32,131 bases of DNA from Nitrospiria bacterium (GTDB taxonomy: Bacteria > Nitrospirota > Nitrospiria > SBBL01 > JAADHI01): NCBI GenBank assembly GCA_945787655.1, contig CALZIJ010000016.1:1-32131 (forward strand). Direction: 5' to 3'. The notes under the pieces are model-generated. The model did not search any database, had not been told where the DNA came from, and saw nothing but the letters and a program-made list of their open reading frames with translations. Position 1 is the stretch's first letter; the number at the start of each line of letters is the position of its first letter. The translations under genes and the position numbers were made by a program. Shown here in pieces: positions 7,488 to 22,688 of the stretch.

Positions 7488-8198
7488 TTAAAAACCGATT
7501 CGCCAAACAAGCATCCCCGCGGCCAATGTTAAAACCCCCAGGCTAATCCCTTTCAAAATGTGTTCATATCGTTTTTGAAATTCAAGATGGGCTTTTGTAC
7601 CGGAACGCTTGATCCCCTTGTATGGACGCGAGGCGTTAATTTCCACATAACTGAGCAGCCCCATCGCCCCGCCCAAAATAAGTGCAGACAGTGACATTCC
7701 GTTCGTTTGAATCATATACCCTGCCCAAAGCGGCAAGGTACCCCATGAAAAGGCAAACCATTCGTCCGTATGAAAACGGCCGTTAAACAATTCAAGATTG
7801 TAGGCAAAAAGGAAAAATCCTTCCAAAAGCGCGATGACCGCGAGAGACGGGGTCACCGTAAAAATATAATACAACCCAATCCCGTAAGCCGGGATAAGCG
7901 AAAAAATGACCAGGATCCAGCCGGTTTTTCGGGAGAAATGATTGCCCCAGGGTTTGCCCGTTTTACCCCCGATGGCATCCAGGGCGTGTGCGGCAATTCC
8001 CAAACCAAAAAAATAAATCGTCACGACCGCGGCAACGCGGTCCCAATACACCGTTTCCGCCAGCATCGACCCGATTACGGTAAAACCAAGTACCATACCG
8101 GTATACGGCAAAAAAAGGAGTCCGATAAAAATGCGGAATTTCAGCGGACCGAATTGCGGGACAAACCATTCCGACCTTCGGTCTGTTAAAGAGTCCAT
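7488..8198 (-). CDS. Polytopic membrane protein, possibly UbiA-superfamily-like
   Basis: This 236-residue protein has roughly seven hydrophobic stretches. After the second there is a distinctive AAHALDAIGGKTGKPWGN, which recalls the Asp/Gly-rich loop of UbiA-type prenyltransferase relatives that carry an AHxxDEL-GRPL variant. The canonical NDxxDxxxD Mg-diphosphate motif is absent, so prenyltransferase activity cannot be claimed. A second polar segment, FNGRFHTDEWFAFSWGTLP, sits later. The start codon directly follows the stop of the Ycf48-like gene (TAA then ATG), so the two are translationally coupled. Function is unknown. Confidence 0.75.
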   Translation of the reverse strand: MDSLTDRRSEWFVPQFGPLKFRIFIGLLFLPYTGMVLGFTVIGSMLAETVYWDRVAAVVTIYFFGLGIAAHALDAIGGKTGKPWGNHFSRKTGWILVIFSLIPAYGIGLYYIFTVTPSLAVIALLEGFFLFAYNLELFNGRFHTDEWFAFSWGTLPLWAGYMIQTNGMSLSALILGGAMGLLSYVEINASRPYKGIKRSGTKAHLEFQKRYEHILKGISLGVLTLAAGMLVWRIGF

Positions 8199-10058
8199 TT
8201 ATCGCGCCAACCCAGCATTTTTTGAGCCAGGCTGTCCATCATATTGTAAAATAAGGCCGCCTTTTCCCACCGCAAACCCTTTGCTCCGGTCGAGAAAAAA
8301 GAGACTCGTGATCCGCTGCACCGTCCCGCTTTCCACCGGGGTCCAGCTTGTTCCGCCATCTGCGGTATACACCATCGTTCCCAAGTCGCCCGCGGCCCAT
8401 CCCTCATCTCCATTCATGACGATACTCCAAAGCGATTCTGTCGTGAAACTCCGCTGAAGCGCCCAATGTTCGCCGCCATCCTCTGTTTTGAGGATAATGC
8501 CGTTCCCACCAACAATCCAACCCCGTTTCGGGCCGTTAAAAAGAATTTTGGCGTACATGTCATTAAAGGGCAGTGGAAAATCCACCCAATTCTGCCCGCC
8601 ATCCTTTGTGCGCATGATCGTGCCGCCGTTCCCAATCAGCCAGCCGTTTTTTTCGTCTAAAAAGAAAACGTCGGTCAAGGCCCGGGTGACATGGCTAAAT
8701 TGTAATTTCCACGTTTTTCCACCATCGATTGTTTTAAAGATTAATCCTGATTCACCAACAATCCAGCCAATTTTTGAATTATAGAAATAGACATTTTCAA
8801 AACTGCCTTCCGTCAACTTGGGTTGGGTCACCCAGGTTTCTCCACCATCAGTGGTCTGTAGAATCACCCCCATGGCACCCACGGCCCAGCCTTCTTTTTC
8901 AGACACAAAATCAACACCGAACAGCCACTCTTCGGTCCCGCTTTCCTGAAAATCCCAGCTCTCTCCCCCGTCATCGGTATACATGATCGTACCGGCTTCG
9001 CCCACAATCCAGCCATGCCGGTCATCATAAAAATAATTACGGAAAAGCCGATCGTTAAATCCAAAGTTTTGGGCTTCCCAGGTTTTACCGCCGTCCGGGG
9101 TATGAATAATAAATCCGCCCCAACCCACGGCCCAGCCGTGGGTTGCGTCTCCAAACGATAAGGCTTCCATCGTTTTATCGGTCGGCACCTCTACCGGCTC
9201 CCAGGTTTCTCCACCATTTTCGGTTCTGAGAAAGACCCCCGACCCGCCTGCAATCCAACCCAGTTTCGGTGTGGCAAATTTCACGCCTAACAGCATGGAT
9301 TTATGAAAGTTGCTTTCTTGCGCGGACCAGGTTTTTCCACCATCTTTCGTATGTTGAATCACCCCTCTTCGGCCCACGGCCCAGCCGTGTAACTCATCCA
9401 CAAAGAAAATCGCTTCCAGTGGAATTCTGGTTCCGCTGTCTTGTTCTTTCCAGGTTTTTCCGCCATTTTGCGTATGAAACACCTTGCCGTCCCAGCCTGA
9501 AATCCAACCTTTTTTTTCATTGAGAAAATAAACCTCCAGCAAAGGCCCCTTCTTGTAACCGATATCCCTTTGAACCCAGGTTTTTCCGCCGTCTTTGGTT
9601 TGAATGACGGTGCCTTGCGCGCCCACGGCCCACCCGTTTTTGCGGTTGGTAAAAAAGATATTCCAGAGCCAGATTTTGAGCGGCCCCACTTGTTTTTCCC
9701 AATGTTTACCACCGTCGCGGGTATGAAAAACATTTCCCGACCAACTGGCCGCCCAGCCGTACTCCTCATCTGGAAAATGGACCGAAAAAAACCGTTCCCC
9801 GCGTTGCCGGTGCTGTGCAACCCAGTTTTTTCCACCATCCGACGTATGAAGGATTACACCAGTCGCGCCGACAGCCCATCCCTTGTTTTTATCAACAAAA
9901 TGCGTCCCCCAAAGCGCCGTTGAACTCACTTCGCCCTGTTTGACGCGCCATCGGCCGGAAGACACTCCTTTATTGGCAAACACAGACTCGCTTATACTCG
10001 CCATCAGGAGAATGTAAAATAAAAGCATCGAATATTTTTTGACTGTCTTTTTCATCAT
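8199..10058 (-). CDS. Secreted Ycf48/BNR-type beta-propeller with 14 repeats
   Basis: I chose the ATG at 10056-10058; a TTG three codons upstream is possible. The 619-residue protein has a signal peptide (hydrophobic about residues 11-26, ending SVFA). The rest is a run of 14 repeats of about 40-45 residues, each with the core GWxVGxxGxIxxTxDGGxTW. The last repeat is degenerate, with GFAVGKGGLILQYDG. Ycf48/HCF136 proteins are seven-bladed propellers that assist photosystem II assembly, and many non-photosynthetic bacteria have secreted relatives of unknown role. Fourteen repeats fit two seven-bladed propellers in one chain. No photosynthesis gene is present, so a PSII role is excluded here. 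It heads the minus-strand run and is coupled to a membrane protein, which suggests a membrane-associated assembly or scaffolding job; that is inference. Confidence 0.9.
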   Translation of the reverse strand: MMKKTVKKYSMLLFYILLMASISESVFANKGVSSGRWRVKQGEVSSTALWGTHFVDKNKGWAVGATGVILHTSDGGKNWVAQHRQRGERFFSVHFPDEEYGWAASWSGNVFHTRDGGKHWEKQVGPLKIWLWNIFFTNRKNGWAVGAQGTVIQTKDGGKTWVQRDIGYKKGPLLEVYFLNEKKGWISGWDGKVFHTQNGGKTWKEQDSGTRIPLEAIFFVDELHGWAVGRRGVIQHTKDGGKTWSAQESNFHKSMLLGVKFATPKLGWIAGGSGVFLRTENGGETWEPVEVPTDKTMEALSFGDATHGWAVGWGGFIIHTPDGGKTWEAQNFGFNDRLFRNYFYDDRHGWIVGEAGTIMYTDDGGESWDFQESGTEEWLFGVDFVSEKEGWAVGAMGVILQTTDGGETWVTQPKLTEGSFENVYFYNSKIGWIVGESGLIFKTIDGGKTWKLQFSHVTRALTDVFFLDEKNGWLIGNGGTIMRTKDGGQNWVDFPLPFNDMYAKILFNGPKRGWIVGGNGIILKTEDGGEHWALQRSFTTESLWSIVMNGDEGWAAGDLGTMVYTADGGTSWTPVESGTVQRITSLFFLDRSKGFAVGKGGLILQYDGQPGSKNAGLAR

Positions 10059-10075
10059 TTTTTCCAAACCAAATA

Positions 10076-10103
10076 TTGATCTTTAAGGTCTCAGCGTGCT
10101 AAT
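10076..10103 (+). promoter_or_regulatory. Weak candidate promoter for the small secreted-protein gene
   Basis: TTGATC (10076-10081), a 16-base spacer and GCTAAT (10098-10103) match sigma70 boxes at eight of twelve positions. The site is in the gap between two divergent genes and points to the ORF starting at 10126. The match is modest. Confidence 0.3.
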
Positions 10104-10125
10104 TTTTACACCATCTGAGGTTCAA

Positions 10126-10542
10126 ATGCAAAAACTTCGCATCCTCATAATTGCCGCTCTTTATATTCATTTCATCCCTGTTGCGGGGAAGGCGGCAGAG
10201 GACCCCATCCCGACTATCACGCAATTGGCCGACCAGGTTTACCGCTCTTCGCAGGACATGGTTATGCACGGCAGTGAAGGCCATACATGGGAAATTGTGC
10301 TTTACGGGAATAAAATGGTTCAGCGGGCCGAGATCCTGCTCAAAAAGGTTGAAGAGACGGACCCGGCTGTTTTTAATCAAAAAAAAGGGAAAATCATTGC
10401 ATCCATTAAAAAGACGCTGGAAAGAGCCAAAATGGCTGTCGAGCTGGGAGAACAGGATAAAGGTCGTATGGCCCTGACCGCAGCCAGAAAAGCATCGTTT
10501 CGCGCCAAACAAACCCGCCAGCGGCTTCATGCCTTTCGTTAA
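10126..10542 (+). CDS. Small secreted helical protein, possibly SmbP-like
   Basis: The frame is open from a GTG at 10096, but the ATG at 10126 is better supported: GAGG lies five bases upstream and a signal peptide starts right there (MQKLRILIIAALYIHF...GKAA|ED). The product is 138 residues. The mature part is helical with two similar segments: one containing MHGSEGHTWEIVLYGNKMVQRAE, one containing AKMAVELGEQDKGRMALTAA. That pattern recalls small periplasmic four-helix SmbP-like proteins, but the His-rich metal sites of SmbP are mostly missing. It may be a distant relative or only look alike. It is convergent with rhlB and divergent from the propeller gene. Confidence 0.75.
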   Translation: MQKLRILIIAALYIHFIPVAGKAAEDPIPTITQLADQVYRSSQDMVMHGSEGHTWEIVLYGNKMVQRAEILLKKVEETDPAVFNQKKGKIIASIKKTLERAKMAVELGEQDKGRMALTAARKASFRAKQTRQRLHAFR

Positions 10543-15557: not shown

Positions 15558-16526
15558 ATGACGACACATCAAGAAGCCATTCAAACACTGCAACAACACA
15601 TCAGCCAGAAAATTATCGGTCAGCACCTGCTGGTCAACCGATTGCTGATTGCCCTTTTAGCCGACGGCCATCTGCTGGTAGAAGGCGCACCCGGATTGGC
15701 CAAAACACGGGCCATCAAGGTTTTAGGAGAAGGGATTGAAGGTGATTTTCACAGGGTTCAATTTACACCGGACCTGTTGCCCGCCGACCTGACCGGGACC
15801 GAGGTTTTTCGTCCGCAGGACGGCTCATTCAAATTTCAGAAAGGGCCGCTTTTCCATAACCTGATCCTGGCCGATGAAATTAATCGTGCGCCGGCCAAAG
15901 TCCAGTCTGCCTTGCTGGAAGCCATGGCCGAACGACAAATTACCGTCGGCTCGGTGACTTACAAACTCCCTGACCTTTTTTTGGTCATGGCTACGCAAAA
16001 CCCGATCGAACAAGAAGGCACGTATCCACTGCCCGAAGCACAGCTCGACCGCTTTTTAATGCATGTCCGTATTGATTACCCCGATGCGGAATCCGAGCAG
16101 TCCATCCTTCACCTTGCACGCGGGGAAGCTCGAACACCTCACAACAACGAAGAAACCTTGACTCCTCTCACGCAAGACGTGATTTTTTCTGCCCGCGAAA
16201 CCATACTGGATCTTTATATGTCCAAGGACATCGAAACCTATCTTCTTCAAATCGTGTTAGCCACACGGCAGCCTGAAGTCCTTGATTCGTCCCTGGCCCG
16301 CTGGATTCAGTTTGGCGCCAGCCCGCGGGCAAGCATTGCCCTGGATCGCTGTGCGCGCGCCCATGCCTGGCTCGACGGACGGGATTTTGTCGCCCCTGAA
16401 GATATCCAAACGATGGCTTACGACATATTGCGTCACCGTATTATTCTCAGTTATGAAGCGGAGGCGGACGGGATAACCCCGGATCGATTGATCGAGGAAC
16501 TGATCAGCCGCATCGCCGTCCCATAA
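15558..16526 (+). CDS. MoxR-family AAA+ ATPase of the Bat operon
   Basis: This 322-residue protein has Walker A GAPGLAKT (residues 43-50), GEGIEGDFHRVQFTPDLLPADLTGTEVF, Walker B LILADEINRAPAKVQSALLEAM (about 102-123 region), sensor 1 in LVMATQNPIEQEGTYPLPEAQLDRF, and an arginine-finger-type GASPRASIAL. All are MoxR features. MoxR ATPases act as chaperones with VWA-domain partners. It is the first gene of a compact operon with DUF58, DUF4381, two VWA proteins and BatD, the Bat (aerotolerance) set. It ends nine bases before the next start. Confidence 0.95.
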   Translation: MTTHQEAIQTLQQHISQKIIGQHLLVNRLLIALLADGHLLVEGAPGLAKTRAIKVLGEGIEGDFHRVQFTPDLLPADLTGTEVFRPQDGSFKFQKGPLFHNLILADEINRAPAKVQSALLEAMAERQITVGSVTYKLPDLFLVMATQNPIEQEGTYPLPEAQLDRFLMHVRIDYPDAESEQSILHLARGEARTPHNNEETLTPLTQDVIFSARETILDLYMSKDIETYLLQIVLATRQPEVLDSSLARWIQFGASPRASIALDRCARAHAWLDGRDFVAPEDIQTMAYDILRHRIILSYEAEADGITPDRLIEELISRIAVP

Positions 16527-16535
16527 ATTCAGAAC

Positions 16536-17543
16536 ATGGACTTTGCGTTAAAACGGTTAAAAACCCGAAAAAAAAATCCCTCGAAAGAGGGAAACCCAGG
16601 GGGACAGGCTTCCGTTGACAGCCCCGTGCGGGTCAGTAAAACAACCCTGATTGCGCTCAACCGTCAGGCCGAGCGGCTGTCCTTGAAAACCGCAAAAATT
16701 CATGCCCAGCAAGGCGGACAATACCTCTCCCCTTTTAAAGGCCGAGGAATGGAATTTGATGAAGTCCGTCCTTATCAACCGGGTGATGACGTCCGAACCA
16801 TTGATTGGAGAGTCACGGCCCGAAGCGGTCAACCGCATACCAAACTCTTCCGGGAAGAACGGGAACGGTCAGTCCTGTTTTGGGTCGATTATCGTGCCCC
16901 AATGTTTTTTGCCACGCGGGGACGGTATAAATCCGTCATGGCGGCCCAGGCGGCGGCCCTGCTTTCTTGGAGCGCGGTTCATCACGGTGACCTGCTGGGA
17001 GGACTCGTCTTTTCAGAAACACAACATCAGGAAATGCGGCCCCAGCGCGGGAAAAAAGGCGTGCTGCATTTCATACAGCACCTGGTGGACCATTCAGCCT
17101 GGGATTTGTCCGAAACGGGGAAGTCAATTGAAGCCCGGGGAGAAGCCGCAAGGCAGGCGTTTATTCGGCTTCGCCGTGTGACACACCCCGGCAGCCTTAT
17201 TTTTTTAATCAGCGATTTCAGAACATTGGGAGACAATGCCGAACAACATTTGGCACAGCTCGGACGGCATAATGATGTCGTTTTAATCTTCATCCACGAC
17301 CAGCTTGAAAAATCCCTGCCCCCGCCCGGACTGTACCGGATCAGCAATGGACTAAAAGAACTGTCACTCGACACCACCAGCCGCTCACTTCACGATCGTT
17401 ACCAATTTAAATTTCAGCAGCGCACCGAGTGGCTCAAAACACTTTGCCGGCGGTACGGGCTTTCTTATTTACCTTGTGACACCTCAGCAGATTTATTTTC
17501 AGTCTTACAACGCGGACTGGGCATAAGAAGGGAGAACCGGTGA
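16536..17543 (+). CDS. DUF58-domain protein of the Bat operon
   Basis: This 335-residue protein has the DUF58 core: GMEFDEVRPYQPGDDVRTIDWRVTAR split over about residues 70-95, followed by KLFREERERSVLFWVD. A VWA-like fold follows, with SLIFLISDF. The first 30 residues are basic. DUF58 proteins sit next to MoxR in most genomes and are thought to act with it, though their biochemical role is not known. No clear Shine-Dalgarno precedes the ATG. Its stop overlaps the next start. Confidence 0.93.
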   Translation: MDFALKRLKTRKKNPSKEGNPGGQASVDSPVRVSKTTLIALNRQAERLSLKTAKIHAQQGGQYLSPFKGRGMEFDEVRPYQPGDDVRTIDWRVTARSGQPHTKLFREERERSVLFWVDYRAPMFFATRGRYKSVMAAQAAALLSWSAVHHGDLLGGLVFSETQHQEMRPQRGKKGVLHFIQHLVDHSAWDLSETGKSIEARGEAARQAFIRLRRVTHPGSLIFLISDFRTLGDNAEQHLAQLGRHNDVVLIFIHDQLEKSLPPPGLYRISNGLKELSLDTTSRSLHDRYQFKFQQRTEWLKTLCRRYGLSYLPCDTSADLFSVLQRGLGIRRENR

Positions 17544-18043
17544 TGGATGGCGCAGAGTCCTTGCCGCTTCGGGATATTCACCTACCCAACCCCGTGTCCT
17601 GGTGGCCGCCTGCCCTCGGCTGGTGGATGCTCATTATTCTGTTGATCCTTGTTATTTTATCTATAAAAATCTTTCTTGTTATAAAACGCCGGCGCAGCGT
17701 ACAAATTGCGGCGATCAAAGCACTTAAACAAATTTCGGAAGCATTCAAAACAGACCAGGATGCCCATCGTCTGGTGAAATCCCTTTCAATCCTCATGCGC
17801 CGAATTTGTCTCAGTTATTTCCCGCGTAAAAAAGTCGCGGCGCTCACCGGTGAAAAATGGCTTCTTTTTTTGGACGAATGCCTGGATTGGGGCAACCTGA
17901 CAGACCGTTTCAGCCAAGGCAGCGGGCGCGCACTCATCACCGCACCTTATCAAAAACGGGCGGAGATCGATGGCGACCAACTCCTGTTTTTATGTGGGCA
18001 CTGGATAAAAGCGCTGCCATTGCTTAAAGAGAAAAAACAATGA
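17543..18043 (+). CDS. DUF4381-family membrane protein of the Bat operon
   Basis: I place the start at the ATG at 17543, which overlaps the DUF58 stop by one base (TGATG) and has GGGAG about eight bases upstream. A GTG one codon earlier is the alternative. The product is 166 residues: a short N-terminus with LRDIHLPNPVSWWPPALGWW, one membrane span (about 26-48), a basic KRRRS and a cytoplasmic helical domain with FPRKKVAALTGEKWLLFLDE. This layout is that of DUF4381 proteins found between DUF58 and BatA. Function is unknown beyond its link to the Bat cluster. Confidence 0.88.
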   Translation: MDGAESLPLRDIHLPNPVSWWPPALGWWMLIILLILVILSIKIFLVIKRRRSVQIAAIKALKQISEAFKTDQDAHRLVKSLSILMRRICLSYFPRKKVAALTGEKWLLFLDECLDWGNLTDRFSQGSGRALITAPYQKRAEIDGDQLLFLCGHWIKALPLLKEKKQ

Positions 18044-19062
18044 TTCATTTTGAATGGCCCTGGTTATTTCTGCTGCTTCCCTTACCCTGGCTCGTACGTC
18101 TTTTTTTTCCGGCGACCGGCTCGGCCCGGGACGCGGCCCTTCGTGTTCCTTTTTTTGAAGAATTTGAAGAAGCCAAAACCCGCACAAGCCAGATTAAAAT
18201 TAAACAAAAAAGCCTGTGGTTCGCCGTCATCGCCTGGTTGTTACTGGTTGTCGCCAGCACACGGCCGCAATGGCTGGGAGACCCCGTCTCCCTTCCGGTC
18301 ACCGGGAGAAACCTGATGCTCGCCGTCGATCTTTCCGGCAGTATGGAGGTGGAGGATTTTACACTGGCCGGTCATCAGGTGACCCGGCTTTATGCCACAC
18401 AGGCGGTCGCAGGCAAGTTTATCGAACGACGCGAAGGAGATCGGCTCGGACTGATTTTATTTGGAAAACAAGCTTACTTACAAACCCCCTTAACCTTTGA
18501 CCGGGAAACCGTGCAGACTCTGTTACACGAAGCCGTCATTGGACTTGCCGGTCAGGAAACGGCCATTGGTGATGCCATTGGGCTTGCGGTCAAACGGCTC
18601 AGGGAAAATGATGCCGGTGAACGCGTACTCATTCTACTGACCGACGGGGCCAACACCGCCGGAGAAGTTGAGCCGATTAAAGCAGCGGAACTCGCAGCAG
18701 CGGAAGGCCTGAAAATCTATACGATCGGTATTGGCGCCGATGAAATGACCGTGCGTTCCTTGTTTGGATCAAGAAAGGTCAATCCTTCCGCCGACCTGGA
18801 TGAAGCCACGCTCACAGCCATTGCAGAAAAAACCGGCGGCCGATATTTTCGGGCGAAAAACACGGAGGAATTTGAGGAAATCTATCAACTATTGGATCAG
18901 CTTGAACCCGTCGAGCAAGAAAAACAACGGTTTCGGCCGGCAAGCGCACTTTATCCCTGGCCCTTGGGCGGCGCAATGTTGATTGCCGCTTTATTGATAC
19001 TGAACCGGAGTTTGACGGGGATTCAAATTCTCTCTCACGCCCCTTCAATAAAACAGGAATAG
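18040..19062 (+). CDS. batA: BatA-like VWA-domain membrane protein
   Basis: This 340-residue protein overlaps DUF4381 by four bases (ATGA). It has an N-terminal span (about 6-24), a second span (about 58-75), a VWA domain with MIDAS DLSGS at residues 97-101 and a later LTDGANTAGEV, and a final span near the C-terminus (LGGAMLIAALLIL). The VWA domain probably faces the periplasm and binds a metal and a protein partner. In Bat clusters, BatA works with BatB and BatD at the inner membrane. Bat genes have been linked to aerotolerance and stress survival, but their mechanism is not established. Confidence 0.93.
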   Translation: MIHFEWPWLFLLLPLPWLVRLFFPATGSARDAALRVPFFEEFEEAKTRTSQIKIKQKSLWFAVIAWLLLVVASTRPQWLGDPVSLPVTGRNLMLAVDLSGSMEVEDFTLAGHQVTRLYATQAVAGKFIERREGDRLGLILFGKQAYLQTPLTFDRETVQTLLHEAVIGLAGQETAIGDAIGLAVKRLRENDAGERVLILLTDGANTAGEVEPIKAAELAAAEGLKIYTIGIGADEMTVRSLFGSRKVNPSADLDEATLTAIAEKTGGRYFRAKNTEEFEEIYQLLDQLEPVEQEKQRFRPASALYPWPLGGAMLIAALLILNRSLTGIQILSHAPSIKQE

Positions 19063-19149
19063 CTTAAAGAAAGACCCAATACAAATGCAGGTACTTATCA
19101 ATCGTAATATTTTGATGTCCACCGACTTTTAAAATCAACAGGAGCACAT

Positions 19150-20970
19150 TTGGATTTCCAAAGTTTAAAGGACTTTCATTTTTTAAGGCCGGAATGGCTG
19201 TGGCTGATGCCCTTACTCGGTCTTCTGCTGTGGCTGTTTTATCGAAGAAAAGCCGTGAGCAAAAGCTGGCAGGCCGTATGCGATCCCGATTTGCTTCCGC
19301 ATCTACTCGTTGAACAATCAAAAGCAAAAAAAACACAGGATGCCGTTTATATATTATCGTTTGGCGGGCTGCTCGCTTTAATGGCCCTGGCTGGCCCCGT
19401 TTGGGAAAAACTGGAGCAACCCGTTTTTCGTGAGCAATCGGCATTGGTTCTTGTTCTGGATCTTTCCCGGTCAATGGATGCCGCAGATTTGAAGCCCACC
19501 CGCCTGGCGCGGGCACGGCACAAATTGATCGACATCCTTAAAAAGAGAAAAGAAGGGCAAACTGCGCTGATCGTGTATGCGGCAGAACCGTTTGTCGTCA
19601 GCCCGCTCACTCAGGACTCGGAAACCATTATTGCCCAGGTTTCAGCCTTAAAAACCGCATTAATGCCCAAACAGGGCAGCCGTTCAGATCTGGCTTTGGA
19701 GAAAGCCGAAGACTTGCTAAAACAGGCCAGCGTTTCCCAAGGCCGCATCCTCATCATCACCGACGGCATTGAAAACACACCATCGGAAGCACTCGAAACC
19801 GTCATCGCACGCTTGACCCTGAATGGACATCAAACTTCAGTATTGGGCGTAGGGACAGTGCAGGGGGCTCCCATTCCTCTGACCGACGGGGGTTTTGTAA
19901 AGAACCGGGCCGGTGAAATTGTCATTCCAAAGCTGGACATACTCAAGCTGCGTATGCTGGCCCTTCAGGGAGAAGGGAGATATCAGACCATACGGGTCGA
20001 TGAGTCGGATATCACGGCGCTTCTCTCTGAACGCCCATTGAAACGATTAAACAATCAAACAGAAGAAGTCGGCTTGAAGGCGGACCTTTGGCGGGAAGAA
20101 GGCCCCTGGCTGTTAATCCCGCTGCTTTTCCTCAGCGCATTGGCATTTCGCCGAGGCATTATCGCCGTCGTTTTTTTGGCAGCCGCACTGTCCTTCCCCG
20201 GTCTGGCGCTGGCCTTGAACTGGCAAGGGCTTTGGACCCGGCCCGATCAACAGGCCGCGAAACTGTTTTCACAGGGTGAAGAAGAAAAAGCCGCATCGGT
20301 TTTTCAAAACCCGGAATGGAAAGCCGCAGCCCATTACCGCGCCGGGCAATTTGAAGAAAGCCTCCGGGCTCTGGAAGGGCTCGATTCGCCGGATGCGCTT
20401 TATAACAAAGGCAATGCCCTGGCCAAACTGGACCGAATACCCGAGGCCATCCAAGCCTATGACGAAGCGCTGAAAATGGATCCGAAACACGCAGATGCAC
20501 GCCATAATCTGGAACTACTGAAAGCGCTTCAGGAAGAAGAGCAACCCCCTGAACAAAACAATTCGGAAGAAGGTGACCCCGCACAGGATGAACAAGACGA
20601 CCCTTCGGAAGAAAGCCAGGAAAATGCTGAGGGGGAACCCGGACAAACGGGGGAGCAAACCCCTTCGGACAATCCACAAGAAGACGGAAACAAGGGCCAG
20701 AAAAATGAAGACTCAGCGCCCCAATCCGCAGAAAAGCAGCCGGATCAAACAGAACAAAACGAACAGGCCCAACAACAAAAGGCAGATCAAGAAGGCGATC
20801 ACAAGCCCGAGCCAAGCGAAGGGGAATTGACGGAGCCGGATGAAATTCAGCTGGCCAACGAGCAATGGCTTCGACGCATCCCCGATGATCCCGGTGGTCT
20901 GCTTCGCCGAAAATTTTTATACCAGTCCCGACAACATCAAGTGGGACGAAATGAGGAGAATGCATGGTGA
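19150..20970 (+). CDS. batB: BatB-BatC fusion: VWA-domain and TPR protein
   Basis: The start is TTG, with AGGAG six bases upstream. The 606-residue protein has two N-terminal spans (about 17-31, 65-82), a VWA domain with MIDAS DLSRS at residues 104-108 and ITDGIENT, a second hydrophobic block (about 318-354), and a TPR unit (ALYNKGNALAKLDRIPEAIQ region, about 395-440). A tail of over 100 residues follows, very rich in Glu, Gln, Asp and Pro, then a short basic end. In many genomes BatB (VWA) and BatC (TPR) are separate genes, so this is a fusion of the two. An 87-base gap before it breaks the otherwise tight operon. BatD starts inside its last codons. Confidence 0.92.
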   Translation: MDFQSLKDFHFLRPEWLWLMPLLGLLLWLFYRRKAVSKSWQAVCDPDLLPHLLVEQSKAKKTQDAVYILSFGGLLALMALAGPVWEKLEQPVFREQSALVLVLDLSRSMDAADLKPTRLARARHKLIDILKKRKEGQTALIVYAAEPFVVSPLTQDSETIIAQVSALKTALMPKQGSRSDLALEKAEDLLKQASVSQGRILIITDGIENTPSEALETVIARLTLNGHQTSVLGVGTVQGAPIPLTDGGFVKNRAGEIVIPKLDILKLRMLALQGEGRYQTIRVDESDITALLSERPLKRLNNQTEEVGLKADLWREEGPWLLIPLLFLSALAFRRGIIAVVFLAAALSFPGLALALNWQGLWTRPDQQAAKLFSQGEEEKAASVFQNPEWKAAAHYRAGQFEESLRALEGLDSPDALYNKGNALAKLDRIPEAIQAYDEALKMDPKHADARHNLELLKALQEEEQPPEQNNSEEGDPAQDEQDDPSEESQENAEGEPGQTGEQTPSDNPQEDGNKGQKNEDSAPQSAEKQPDQTEQNEQAQQQKADQEGDHKPEPSEGELTEPDEIQLANEQWLRRIPDDPGGLLRRKFLYQSRQHQVGRNEENAW

Positions 20971-22688
20971 TCTTTATGCAGCGGCTCAGTATGGCAGTGC
21001 TTTGCATGGCCTTCACACTAACCGCTTTGTCTGAAGTCCGGGCCGCCACAATTCAGGCTGAACTGGACCGGGACCGAGTCTCCCTCCAGGAATCCTTTAC
21101 ACTCGTTTTTGAAGCCGAAGGCACGCTTGACGGCGAGCCTGATTTTAGCCCGATTGAACAACACTTTGACATTGTCCATAAAATGGAAGGCAGCCGGATG
21201 GAAATCATCAATGGGCAGATTTCCCAAAAAAAAGAATGGACCCTCACCCTCATGGGGAAAGAAGCCGGATTCTTTACCATACCGTCGATTTCATTCGGGA
21301 AAGACCAAAGCCCTGCTCTCCGTATCGATATCGAGAAAAAAATCCGGTCTGCAAAAAAAGAAGAACCGGAACTTTTAATGCTTGAAGTCACCGGGACCCC
21401 TGAATCGGGATACGTTCAGTCTCAATTTATTTATACCATTCGCTTTTACCGGTCCATTAACCTGTTAAGCGCACAAATTTCAGAACCTGAAATCAGCGGC
21501 ATCGACGCGGTCATCGAAAAACTCGGTGAAGACCGCCAATTTGAAATGCGGCGTGACGGAGAACGGTATCGTGTTATCGAGCGGAAATATGCAATCTTCC
21601 CTCAACAGAGCGGACAATTGACTATTTCTCCTATCACCTTTGCCGGCCAGCTTGCAGGCAGAGCGCGTTCGCAATTTAACCCCTTTCCCGGTGGAGGACC
21701 GATTAAACGGTTACGTTCCGAACCGCTTACACTGCAAGTCAATCCGGTTCCTCAAGATAAAATCAAGGGACAGTGGCTGCCGGCCCGCAATCTGTTGCTG
21801 ATGGAAAGCTGGACGGAAATGGAAAATGATGCTCTTACGGGTCAAGTGGGTGAACCTTTGACCTGGACCCTGCGCGTCGAGGCCGAAGGCTTGACCGCAG
21901 CACAAATCCCGGAAATCAACCCGGACATCCCCAAAGCCTTTAAAGCCTATCCGGATCAAGCGACCCTAAGAAATGAAACAACACCAGACGGACTGACCGG
22001 CATTCGCGAAGAAAAAATCGCACTCATTCCCACTGTGCCCGGAACCCTGGTCTTACCAAAAGTGGACGTTCCCTGGTGGAACACCCGGACGGGACAAATG
22101 GAAGTGGCCCAATTGCCTGCCCGTCAAATACAGGTTTCCCCGGCAGAGATCCCTTTGCAACCCGTTCTGCCGGCACCCGTGCCGGAAACGGCACTTCGAC
22201 AAAAAGCGCCTGCAAATCCGGCCCCTGCTCCCAGTGCGAAAACCACTCCGGGGTTCTGGCCCTGGGTGAGCCTTGCCCTGACCGTGGCCTGGGTCATGAC
22301 CCTGATGGGCTGGTGGCAGGCACATCGGAAGGCAAAACAAATACAAGCCTATTCCAAAGGCCCTGGAGAATCCTTGCCTGACTTCGGCCCGGTAAAAAGA
22401 CAACTGAAAAGAGCCTGCACCCAAAATGATACGGCGGCCGCCAAAGATGCCCTGCTTTCCTGGGGAAAACTCAAGTGGCCGGGACGGCCCCTTAGCCTGG
22501 GAGAGATTCAAAATCGGGTCGGACCAAGCCTGTCCAGCGAAATCAGAACACTCAATGCGGTATTATACAGTCAGTCTAAGACGTCCTGGGAAACGGGGAA
22601 TTTACTCTGGGCCGCTTTTGAAAAAGAAAAGAAGACGCAAAAAAAAGCCTCATCCAAACCTGAGGCTTTGGTGCCGCTCTATCCTTAA
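20964..22688 (+). CDS. batD: BatD-like oxygen-tolerance protein
   Basis: This 574-residue protein has a signal peptide (about residues 5-28, ending VRA), then Ig-like beta-rich repeats starting with LDRDRVSLQESFTLVFEAEG and including SPIEQHFDIVHKMEGSRMEI, typical of BatD. One C-terminal membrane span (WPWVSLALTVAWVMTLMGW, about 430-450) and a cytoplasmic helical tail follow. It overlaps the BatB-C gene by seven bases. A second Met at codon 5 is a possible start. BatD is thought to present its large periplasmic part to the VWA partners. A terminator-like hairpin lies in the last codons (separate entry). Confidence 0.92.
   Translation: MVIFMQRLSMAVLCMAFTLTALSEVRAATIQAELDRDRVSLQESFTLVFEAEGTLDGEPDFSPIEQHFDIVHKMEGSRMEIINGQISQKKEWTLTLMGKEAGFFTIPSISFGKDQSPALRIDIEKKIRSAKKEEPELLMLEVTGTPESGYVQSQFIYTIRFYRSINLLSAQISEPEISGIDAVIEKLGEDRQFEMRRDGERYRVIERKYAIFPQQSGQLTISPITFAGQLAGRARSQFNPFPGGGPIKRLRSEPLTLQVNPVPQDKIKGQWLPARNLLLMESWTEMENDALTGQVGEPLTWTLRVEAEGLTAAQIPEINPDIPKAFKAYPDQATLRNETTPDGLTGIREEKIALIPTVPGTLVLPKVDVPWWNTRTGQMEVAQLPARQIQVSPAEIPLQPVLPAPVPETALRQKAPANPAPAPSAKTTPGFWPWVSLALTVAWVMTLMGWWQAHRKAKQIQAYSKGPGESLPDFGPVKRQLKRACTQNDTAAAKDALLSWGKLKWPGRPLSLGEIQNRVGPSLSSEIRTLNAVLYSQSKTSWETGNLLWAAFEKEKKTQKKASSKPEALVPLYP
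22639..22669 (-). terminator. Intrinsic-terminator-like hairpin on the minus strand inside the end of batD
   Basis: On the minus strand AAAGCCTCA, an eight-base loop and TGAGGCTTT form a perfect nine-pair stem that runs into eight T in all. On the plus strand only three T follow, so sense termination would be weak. It would stop transcription coming from the right, antisense to the Bat operon. Confidence 0.45.

Follow-up and report, generated by a model that had tools for sequence, protein, structure and literature searches.

Respiration operates at a redox potential fixed by its quinones. The methyl-plastoquinone (mPQ) pathway is reportedly the subject of Elling et al. 2025. Nitrospira makes methyl-plastoquinones (PMC12324825), and MpqA-E are the mPQ enzymes homologous to ubiquinone-pathway enzymes (PMC13386864). 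Members of the UbiA superfamily (PF01040; 4tq4, 4od4, 7bpu, 8djk) form a helical bundle, with structures of about 270-290 aa, and the enzymes carry NDxxDxxxD and a second Asp motif. Ycf48/Hcf136 (PF14870, 2xbg) are photosystem II assembly factors with seven repeats in one propeller. An integrative element (ICE) figure of Candidatus Nitrosocaldus cavascurensis lists CHLP, GGPS, UbiC, UbiA, RmlB, and UbiE, and topoisomerase IA is placed in ICE-2 (PMC5797428).

We analyzed a window of 32,131 nucleotides that makes up contig 16 in full. The genome measures 3.04 Mb over 168 contigs, and its nearest named relatives are Nitrospirota MAGs, including Manganitrophaceae, Manganitrophus, and Troglogloeales. 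The window encodes a Ycf48-like protein (PROP), a UbiA-fold membrane protein (MEM), and a small secreted protein (U148) (Table 1). With modest confidence, we lean toward the reading that MEM and an unlinked UbiE-like methylase (MT) make or alter a second polyprenyl-aromatic, quinone-like membrane lipid besides the apparent mPQ set, with PROP as a periplasmic accessory. Our literature search, with full text mainly from open-access papers, listed no paper describing a MEM-MT module; the only trace was the annotation of the Nitrosocaldus ICE, where, in the accessible text, the genes are annotated only and the UbiA divergence, the cross-genome link, and the bacterial copies are not described (PMC5797428).

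Table 1. Features of the locus in window coordinates
Feature	Position	Strand	Basis
PROP, Ycf48-like, secreted, 618 aa, 14 repeats	8199..10055	(-)	ORF from ATG 10055, stop 8199-8201
PROP first seven-bladed propeller, residues 44-331	9063..9926	(-)	VIA-align to 7bie
PROP second seven-bladed propeller, residues about 337-606	8238..9047	(-)	model strand pattern and whole-length matches; exact boundary inferred
MEM, UbiA-fold integral membrane protein, 236 aa	7488..8198	(-)	ORF, model, structure matches
MEM residues 71-85, AHALD...GKPWGN region	7944..7988	(-)	alignments
U148, small secreted protein, divergent from PROP	10096..10542	(+)	ORF; ATG probably 10126

The PROP ORF in its longest form spans 8199-10067(-) from a TTG, and the in-frame ATG at 10058, the start given by the first-pass annotation, lies one codon upstream of the ATG at 10055. 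MlaA/MlaC lipid-transport genes (859-2304, (-)) and a MoxR-DUF58-VWA-BatD cluster (15558-22688, (+)) were also observed near the locus.

The double propeller PROP and its association with MEM

PROP shares the repeat and blade type of Ycf48. It passed Pfam PF14870 (Ycf48) with 276.2 bits (cut-off 27); against the NCBIfam Ycf48 equivalog NF010237 (cut-off 326) PROP scored 316.8 bits and its L060 relative 336, both scores being inflated by the repeated units. A simple repeat pattern detected exactly 14 repeats, the number given by the first-pass annotation, at a spacing of 40-42 residues and with an Asp box in 13, while 2000 shuffles of PROP yielded a maximum of 3. The AF2 model (mean pLDDT 88.6, pTM 0.78) agrees with the earlier suggestion of two seven-bladed propellers in one secreted chain: residues 44-331 aligned to the 7-bladed propeller 7bie (VIA-align, Z 33.8, rmsd 2.2 A, 279 aligned) and residues 31-606 to the repetitive propeller 2ymu (VIA-align, Z 33.8, rmsd 8.7, 557 aligned), and the helix at 7-26 is a putative signal peptide. 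The best Foldseek matches of PROP were GH74 xyloglucanases; AIP1 double propellers were also matched over the whole length, and YCF48 was a single-propeller match (TM 0.75 by target length, 23% identity). The repeat number was constant in the 12 full-length rows of the PROP ortholog alignment (13 rows, one cut by a contig end) and does not vary freely. In contrast to the single seven-repeat propeller of Ycf48, PROP has fourteen repeats in two propellers, and its neighbours are unrelated to photosynthesis; the Nitrospirota kin carrying PROP are not known to have a photosystem.

Other Ycf48-like sequences were observed. Contig 8 of the window genome holds further such sequence (L073 5835-8951), distributed over adjoining ORFs of about 340-370 aa. 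Family f10 has other double-length proteins of about 615 aa, 40-41% identical (L162 4475-6319, L163 5218-7065, L164), which were left out of the PROP ortholog count; the L162 and L163 genes are set among PD40 beta-propeller genes, and L164 is cut at a contig end.

The MEM start codon (8196-8198) abuts the PROP stop codon (8199-8201) with no gap, as first described. The survey of co-occurrence detected a PROP ortholog (at least 49% identity) in 17/17 MEM-bearing genomes of the window's order, in two pieces in G006 and G017, and PROP adjoins MEM in 14 of these genomes (14 of 18 PROP copies); G010 of the same order has neither MEM nor a PROP ortholog. This co-occurrence and the operon-like spacing in the window would fit the proposal of the first-pass annotation that PROP and MEM act together to assemble or stabilise some unknown membrane complex, like Ycf48 for photosystem II. 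We consider that proposal very unlikely, as common ancestry accounts for most of the co-occurrence within the order, where the two are jointly absent only once, PROP and MEM are apart in three members of the family to which the window belongs (G002, G004, and G005), and G008 has a second PROP copy with U148 but without MEM. Outside the order, no PROP was found beside MEM in 7/7 MEM-bearing Nitrospirota relatives or at the 7 archaeal loci examined. The proposal is further weakened by the constant partner of MEM, a UbiE-like methylase, and by the conserved MEM loops, which probably face away from the secreted PROP. PROP is a real but local, order-level companion of MEM.

The most constant neighbour of PROP is U148, found beside it in 16/17 assessable copies, compared with 14/18 for MEM, and MT is kept in MEM genomes even when far away. 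It is accordingly a real possibility, although we hold it to be less than probable, that PROP and MEM are passive neighbours, PROP acting with U148 (perhaps metal-binding) in a periplasmic or Mn-related task and MEM acting with MT. The likeness of U148 to the small metal-binding protein family PF16785 (SMBP) is weak and below cut-off. Passive neighbourhood is harder to reconcile with the 14 genomes, from several families, in which PROP and MEM stay adjacent while the other flanks change, which exceeds the expected chance retention.

U148 has a conserved HGxxGHTxEIVxYG-like stretch (window, L157, L158, L160, L161) and is divergent from PROP nearly everywhere. In G002 and G004 (L086, L087), where PROP is gone from MEM, a TauE exporter-type gene lies upstream of MEM instead (L086 by Pfam).

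The modelled UbiA fold of MEM and the loss of the Asp-rich motifs

The window MEM had no Pfam or NCBIfam match above cut-off. Its AF2 model (mean pLDDT 89.7, pTM 0.87) has 8 helices, and the top 10 VIA-align rows were all UbiA-fold (Z 12.8-16.1, 191-209 aligned), led by Z 16.1 (rmsd 5.4, 208 aligned), 15.6 (4.3, 209), and 15.3 (3.4, 198); soluble isoprenoid synthases reached a Z of up to 12.6, under all of these rows. The top 6 Foldseek rows were likewise UbiA-fold, the best being UBIAD1, an archaeal DGGGP synthase, and Archaeoglobus UbiA, with weak E-values (0.0055 at best) yet a probability of 1.0. PF01040 was detected at E <= 0.1 in 8/10 scanned MEM members and above cut-off in 0/10, and MEM of 10 relatives gave sub-threshold scores of 25-32 bits (cut-off 34.2). 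Profile-profile comparison by hhalign of MEM (32, then 74 rows) with canonical UbiAs of the relatives gave no alignment (probability <1%), and the MEM sequence profile against PDB chains gave chance matches only, with no UbiA among them; the UbiA link therefore comes from the modelled fold together with the sub-threshold PF01040 matches. By its model, MEM belongs to the UbiA superfamily at the fold level, with the helical bundle over residues 16-236, as the first-pass annotation had proposed for a UbiA-like protein with an AHALD...GKPWGN loop (residues 70-86) and no prenyltransferase motif.

Both NDxxDxxxD and the second Asp motif (DxxxD) are missing from MEM, and 32/32 rows of the first alignment have AHxxDxxG instead, whereas NDxxDxxxD was found in 16/22 canonical UbiA loci examined in the relatives. 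MEM is also shorter than the known UbiA structures and never exceeded the PF01040 cut-off in the scanned sets. In an alignment of 73 rows from bacteria and archaea, conservation reaches 95% or more at 52 positions, including H71, D74, E126, N134, E136, H143, S190, and K194; H71 and D74 are kept in all 73 rows besides that of the distant archaeal L134, and H71, D74, P83, W84, and G85 are fully or nearly invariant in the alignments. From the helix order, rather than a residue-level alignment, residues 71-85 would take the place of the first Asp-rich motif of UbiA enzymes. The positive charges of loops 71-90 and 186-214 suggest that the conserved loops are probably cytosolic, as in the UbiA superfamily, and on the opposite membrane side from the secreted PROP.

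The loss of both Asp-rich motifs makes ordinary Mg-dependent prenyl transfer by MEM doubtful, and the most serious doubt about our reading is that MEM may act as a holder and have no enzymatic activity. If MEM were a UbiA relative without catalysis that serves as a membrane scaffold, holding or presenting a quinone to MT, this would explain why it has kept the fold and the MT link but not the motifs, and a canonical 4-hydroxybenzoate prenyltransferase of the window genome could do the transfer. We regard such a scaffold as unlikely: the polar conservation among the 52 positions seems greater than passive holding would require, and in archaea a lyase-like gene, a possible acceptor maker, is often next door.

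A distant archaeal MEM relative was detected at L134 7211-7927 (E 5e-30), which keeps the H71 position and the PYT stretch and has N at D74; in the 14 kb read at this locus, no gene was labelled as MT or as lyase-like. It is a possible outgroup for tracing the lost MEM motifs.

The methylase partner MT and the distribution of the module

MT is a UbiE-like methylase, passing PF01209 (Ubie_methyltran, cut-off 20.1) with 104.6 bits for a bacterial and 76.7 bits for an archaeal member. In the window genome it is unlinked to MEM (contig 17, G000:C17:47276-47953). We demonstrated its co-occurrence with MEM in two sets of genomes. MEM was detected in 24/58 relatives, and MT (E below 1e-40) in 23/24 MEM-bearing Nitrospirota relatives versus 0/34 without MEM, the sole MEM-bearing relative without MT being an 82%-complete genome. 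A strong MEM match was found in 59/150 genomes drawn evenly from a larger archaeal class (genomes without a match listed only in part), counting E below 1e-40 only and dropping 13 weaker ones of the 72 genomes that matched at E <= 0.001. MT at E <= 1e-35, a threshold that drops G084 (5e-26), was present in 51/59 of these MEM genomes versus 0/91 others; one of the 8/59 MEM genomes without MT at this threshold, G208, has a weaker MT next door.

The two genes also cluster. MT adjoins MEM in Nitrospirota outside the window's order, and 49/51 archaeal pairs are within 2.5 kb, the cluster persisting despite a varying gene order: the genes run in the same direction or converge, and the lyase-like gene may or may not stand between them. 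MT is the constant and deep partner of MEM, and this partnership favours a role in making polyprenyl-aromatic lipids over one in assembling a complex. G399, the only MEM carrier of its genus among the listed genomes, has MEM and MT convergent and side by side, and in G008 MEM occurs twice, next to PROP in one copy and next to MT in the other (contigs C147, C165, and C81).

Like the mPQ pathway of Nitrospirota, the MEM-MT set combines one UbiA-type and one UbiE-type protein. The window genome holds its own MpqE besides (contig 40; 378.2 bits, NF052510 cut-off 335) and its own canonical 4-hydroxybenzoate prenyltransferase, UbiA (contig 6; TIGR01474 306.0, cut-off 275.45), close to which lies an ORF weakly matching chorismate lyase. 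MT was rejected as MpqE, with 78.1, 70.4, and 83.3 bits, far under the cut-off of 335, so MEM and MT constitute an additional set.

A short chorismate-lyase-like gene accompanies the MEM-MT pair in 25/30 archaeal loci. Among 11 of these proteins tested against PF01947 (cut-off 22 bits), 3 were above, 4 were just below, and 4 had no match; the HMM that labelled the genes was seeded with one of the PF01947-negative outliers, so that for the outlier group the label is led by position. In the L126 cluster, ORFs read by eye as an epimerase, a GGPP synthase, and a geranylgeranyl reductase accompany MEM, MT, and the lyase-like gene, with a topoisomerase-like ORF nearby, and this is apparently the same gene set as the Nitrosocaldus cavascurensis ICE cargo (PMC5797428).

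Archaeal AmoA was detected in 57/59 archaeal MEM genomes and in all seven archaeal MEM genomes first found. MEM does not mark ammonia oxidisers in general, since it is present in 57/107 AmoA-bearing genomes. Among 295 genomes drawn from the Nitrospirota phylum, 11 have MEM, and in family f6 MEM and MT are missing from most genomes. The FastTree tree of 74 MEM rows, some of which are the same gene reached by two routes, was rooted on L134; in it the 25 bacterial rows together form a single clade (support 0.82) nested among the archaeal rows. With this weak root, the tree suggests one transfer of MEM from archaea to bacteria, and the MEM-MT module is probably of archaeal origin.

Proposed function and its meaning

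According to the reading we favour, the helical bundle of MEM would accommodate the polyprenyl chain, with a reaction site at the conserved cytosolic loops (H71, D74, KPWG, and S190-x-x-YK), and the ring would receive its methyl group from MT on the cytosolic side. The archaeal chorismate-lyase-like protein could supply 4-hydroxybenzoate as the acceptor. We show the modelled fold, the motif loss, and the co-occurrence and clustering with MT, and we infer the lipid product, the catalysis by MEM, and the role of PROP. PROP in the periplasm would be an accessory specific to the order that may assist a quinone-reactive complex (our first guess) or the MEM site; what ties it to lipid synthesis is position alone.

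A wider hypothesis, which we put forward tentatively and consider rather doubtful as a whole, is that an undescribed lipid, benzoquinone-like or otherwise prenyl-aromatic, is made in many ammonia-oxidising archaea and in some Nitrospirota, among them the Manganitrophaceae kin, by a UbiC/UbiA/UbiE-like module, whose UbiA-like enzyme would use an invariant His/Asp site without the Asp-rich motifs, and that bacteria acquired this module from archaea in a single transfer, after which a periplasmic double propeller was added in one order.

The claim is directly testable by lipidomics with strains already in culture. If true, it would provide an example of a UbiA-fold protein that functions in the absence of the Asp motifs regarded as essential, and a second quinone-like module, distinct from menaquinone and methyl-plastoquinone, in ammonia-oxidising archaea and the kin of the manganese oxidisers, which would bear on reverse electron flow for carbon fixation in organisms living on high-potential donors.
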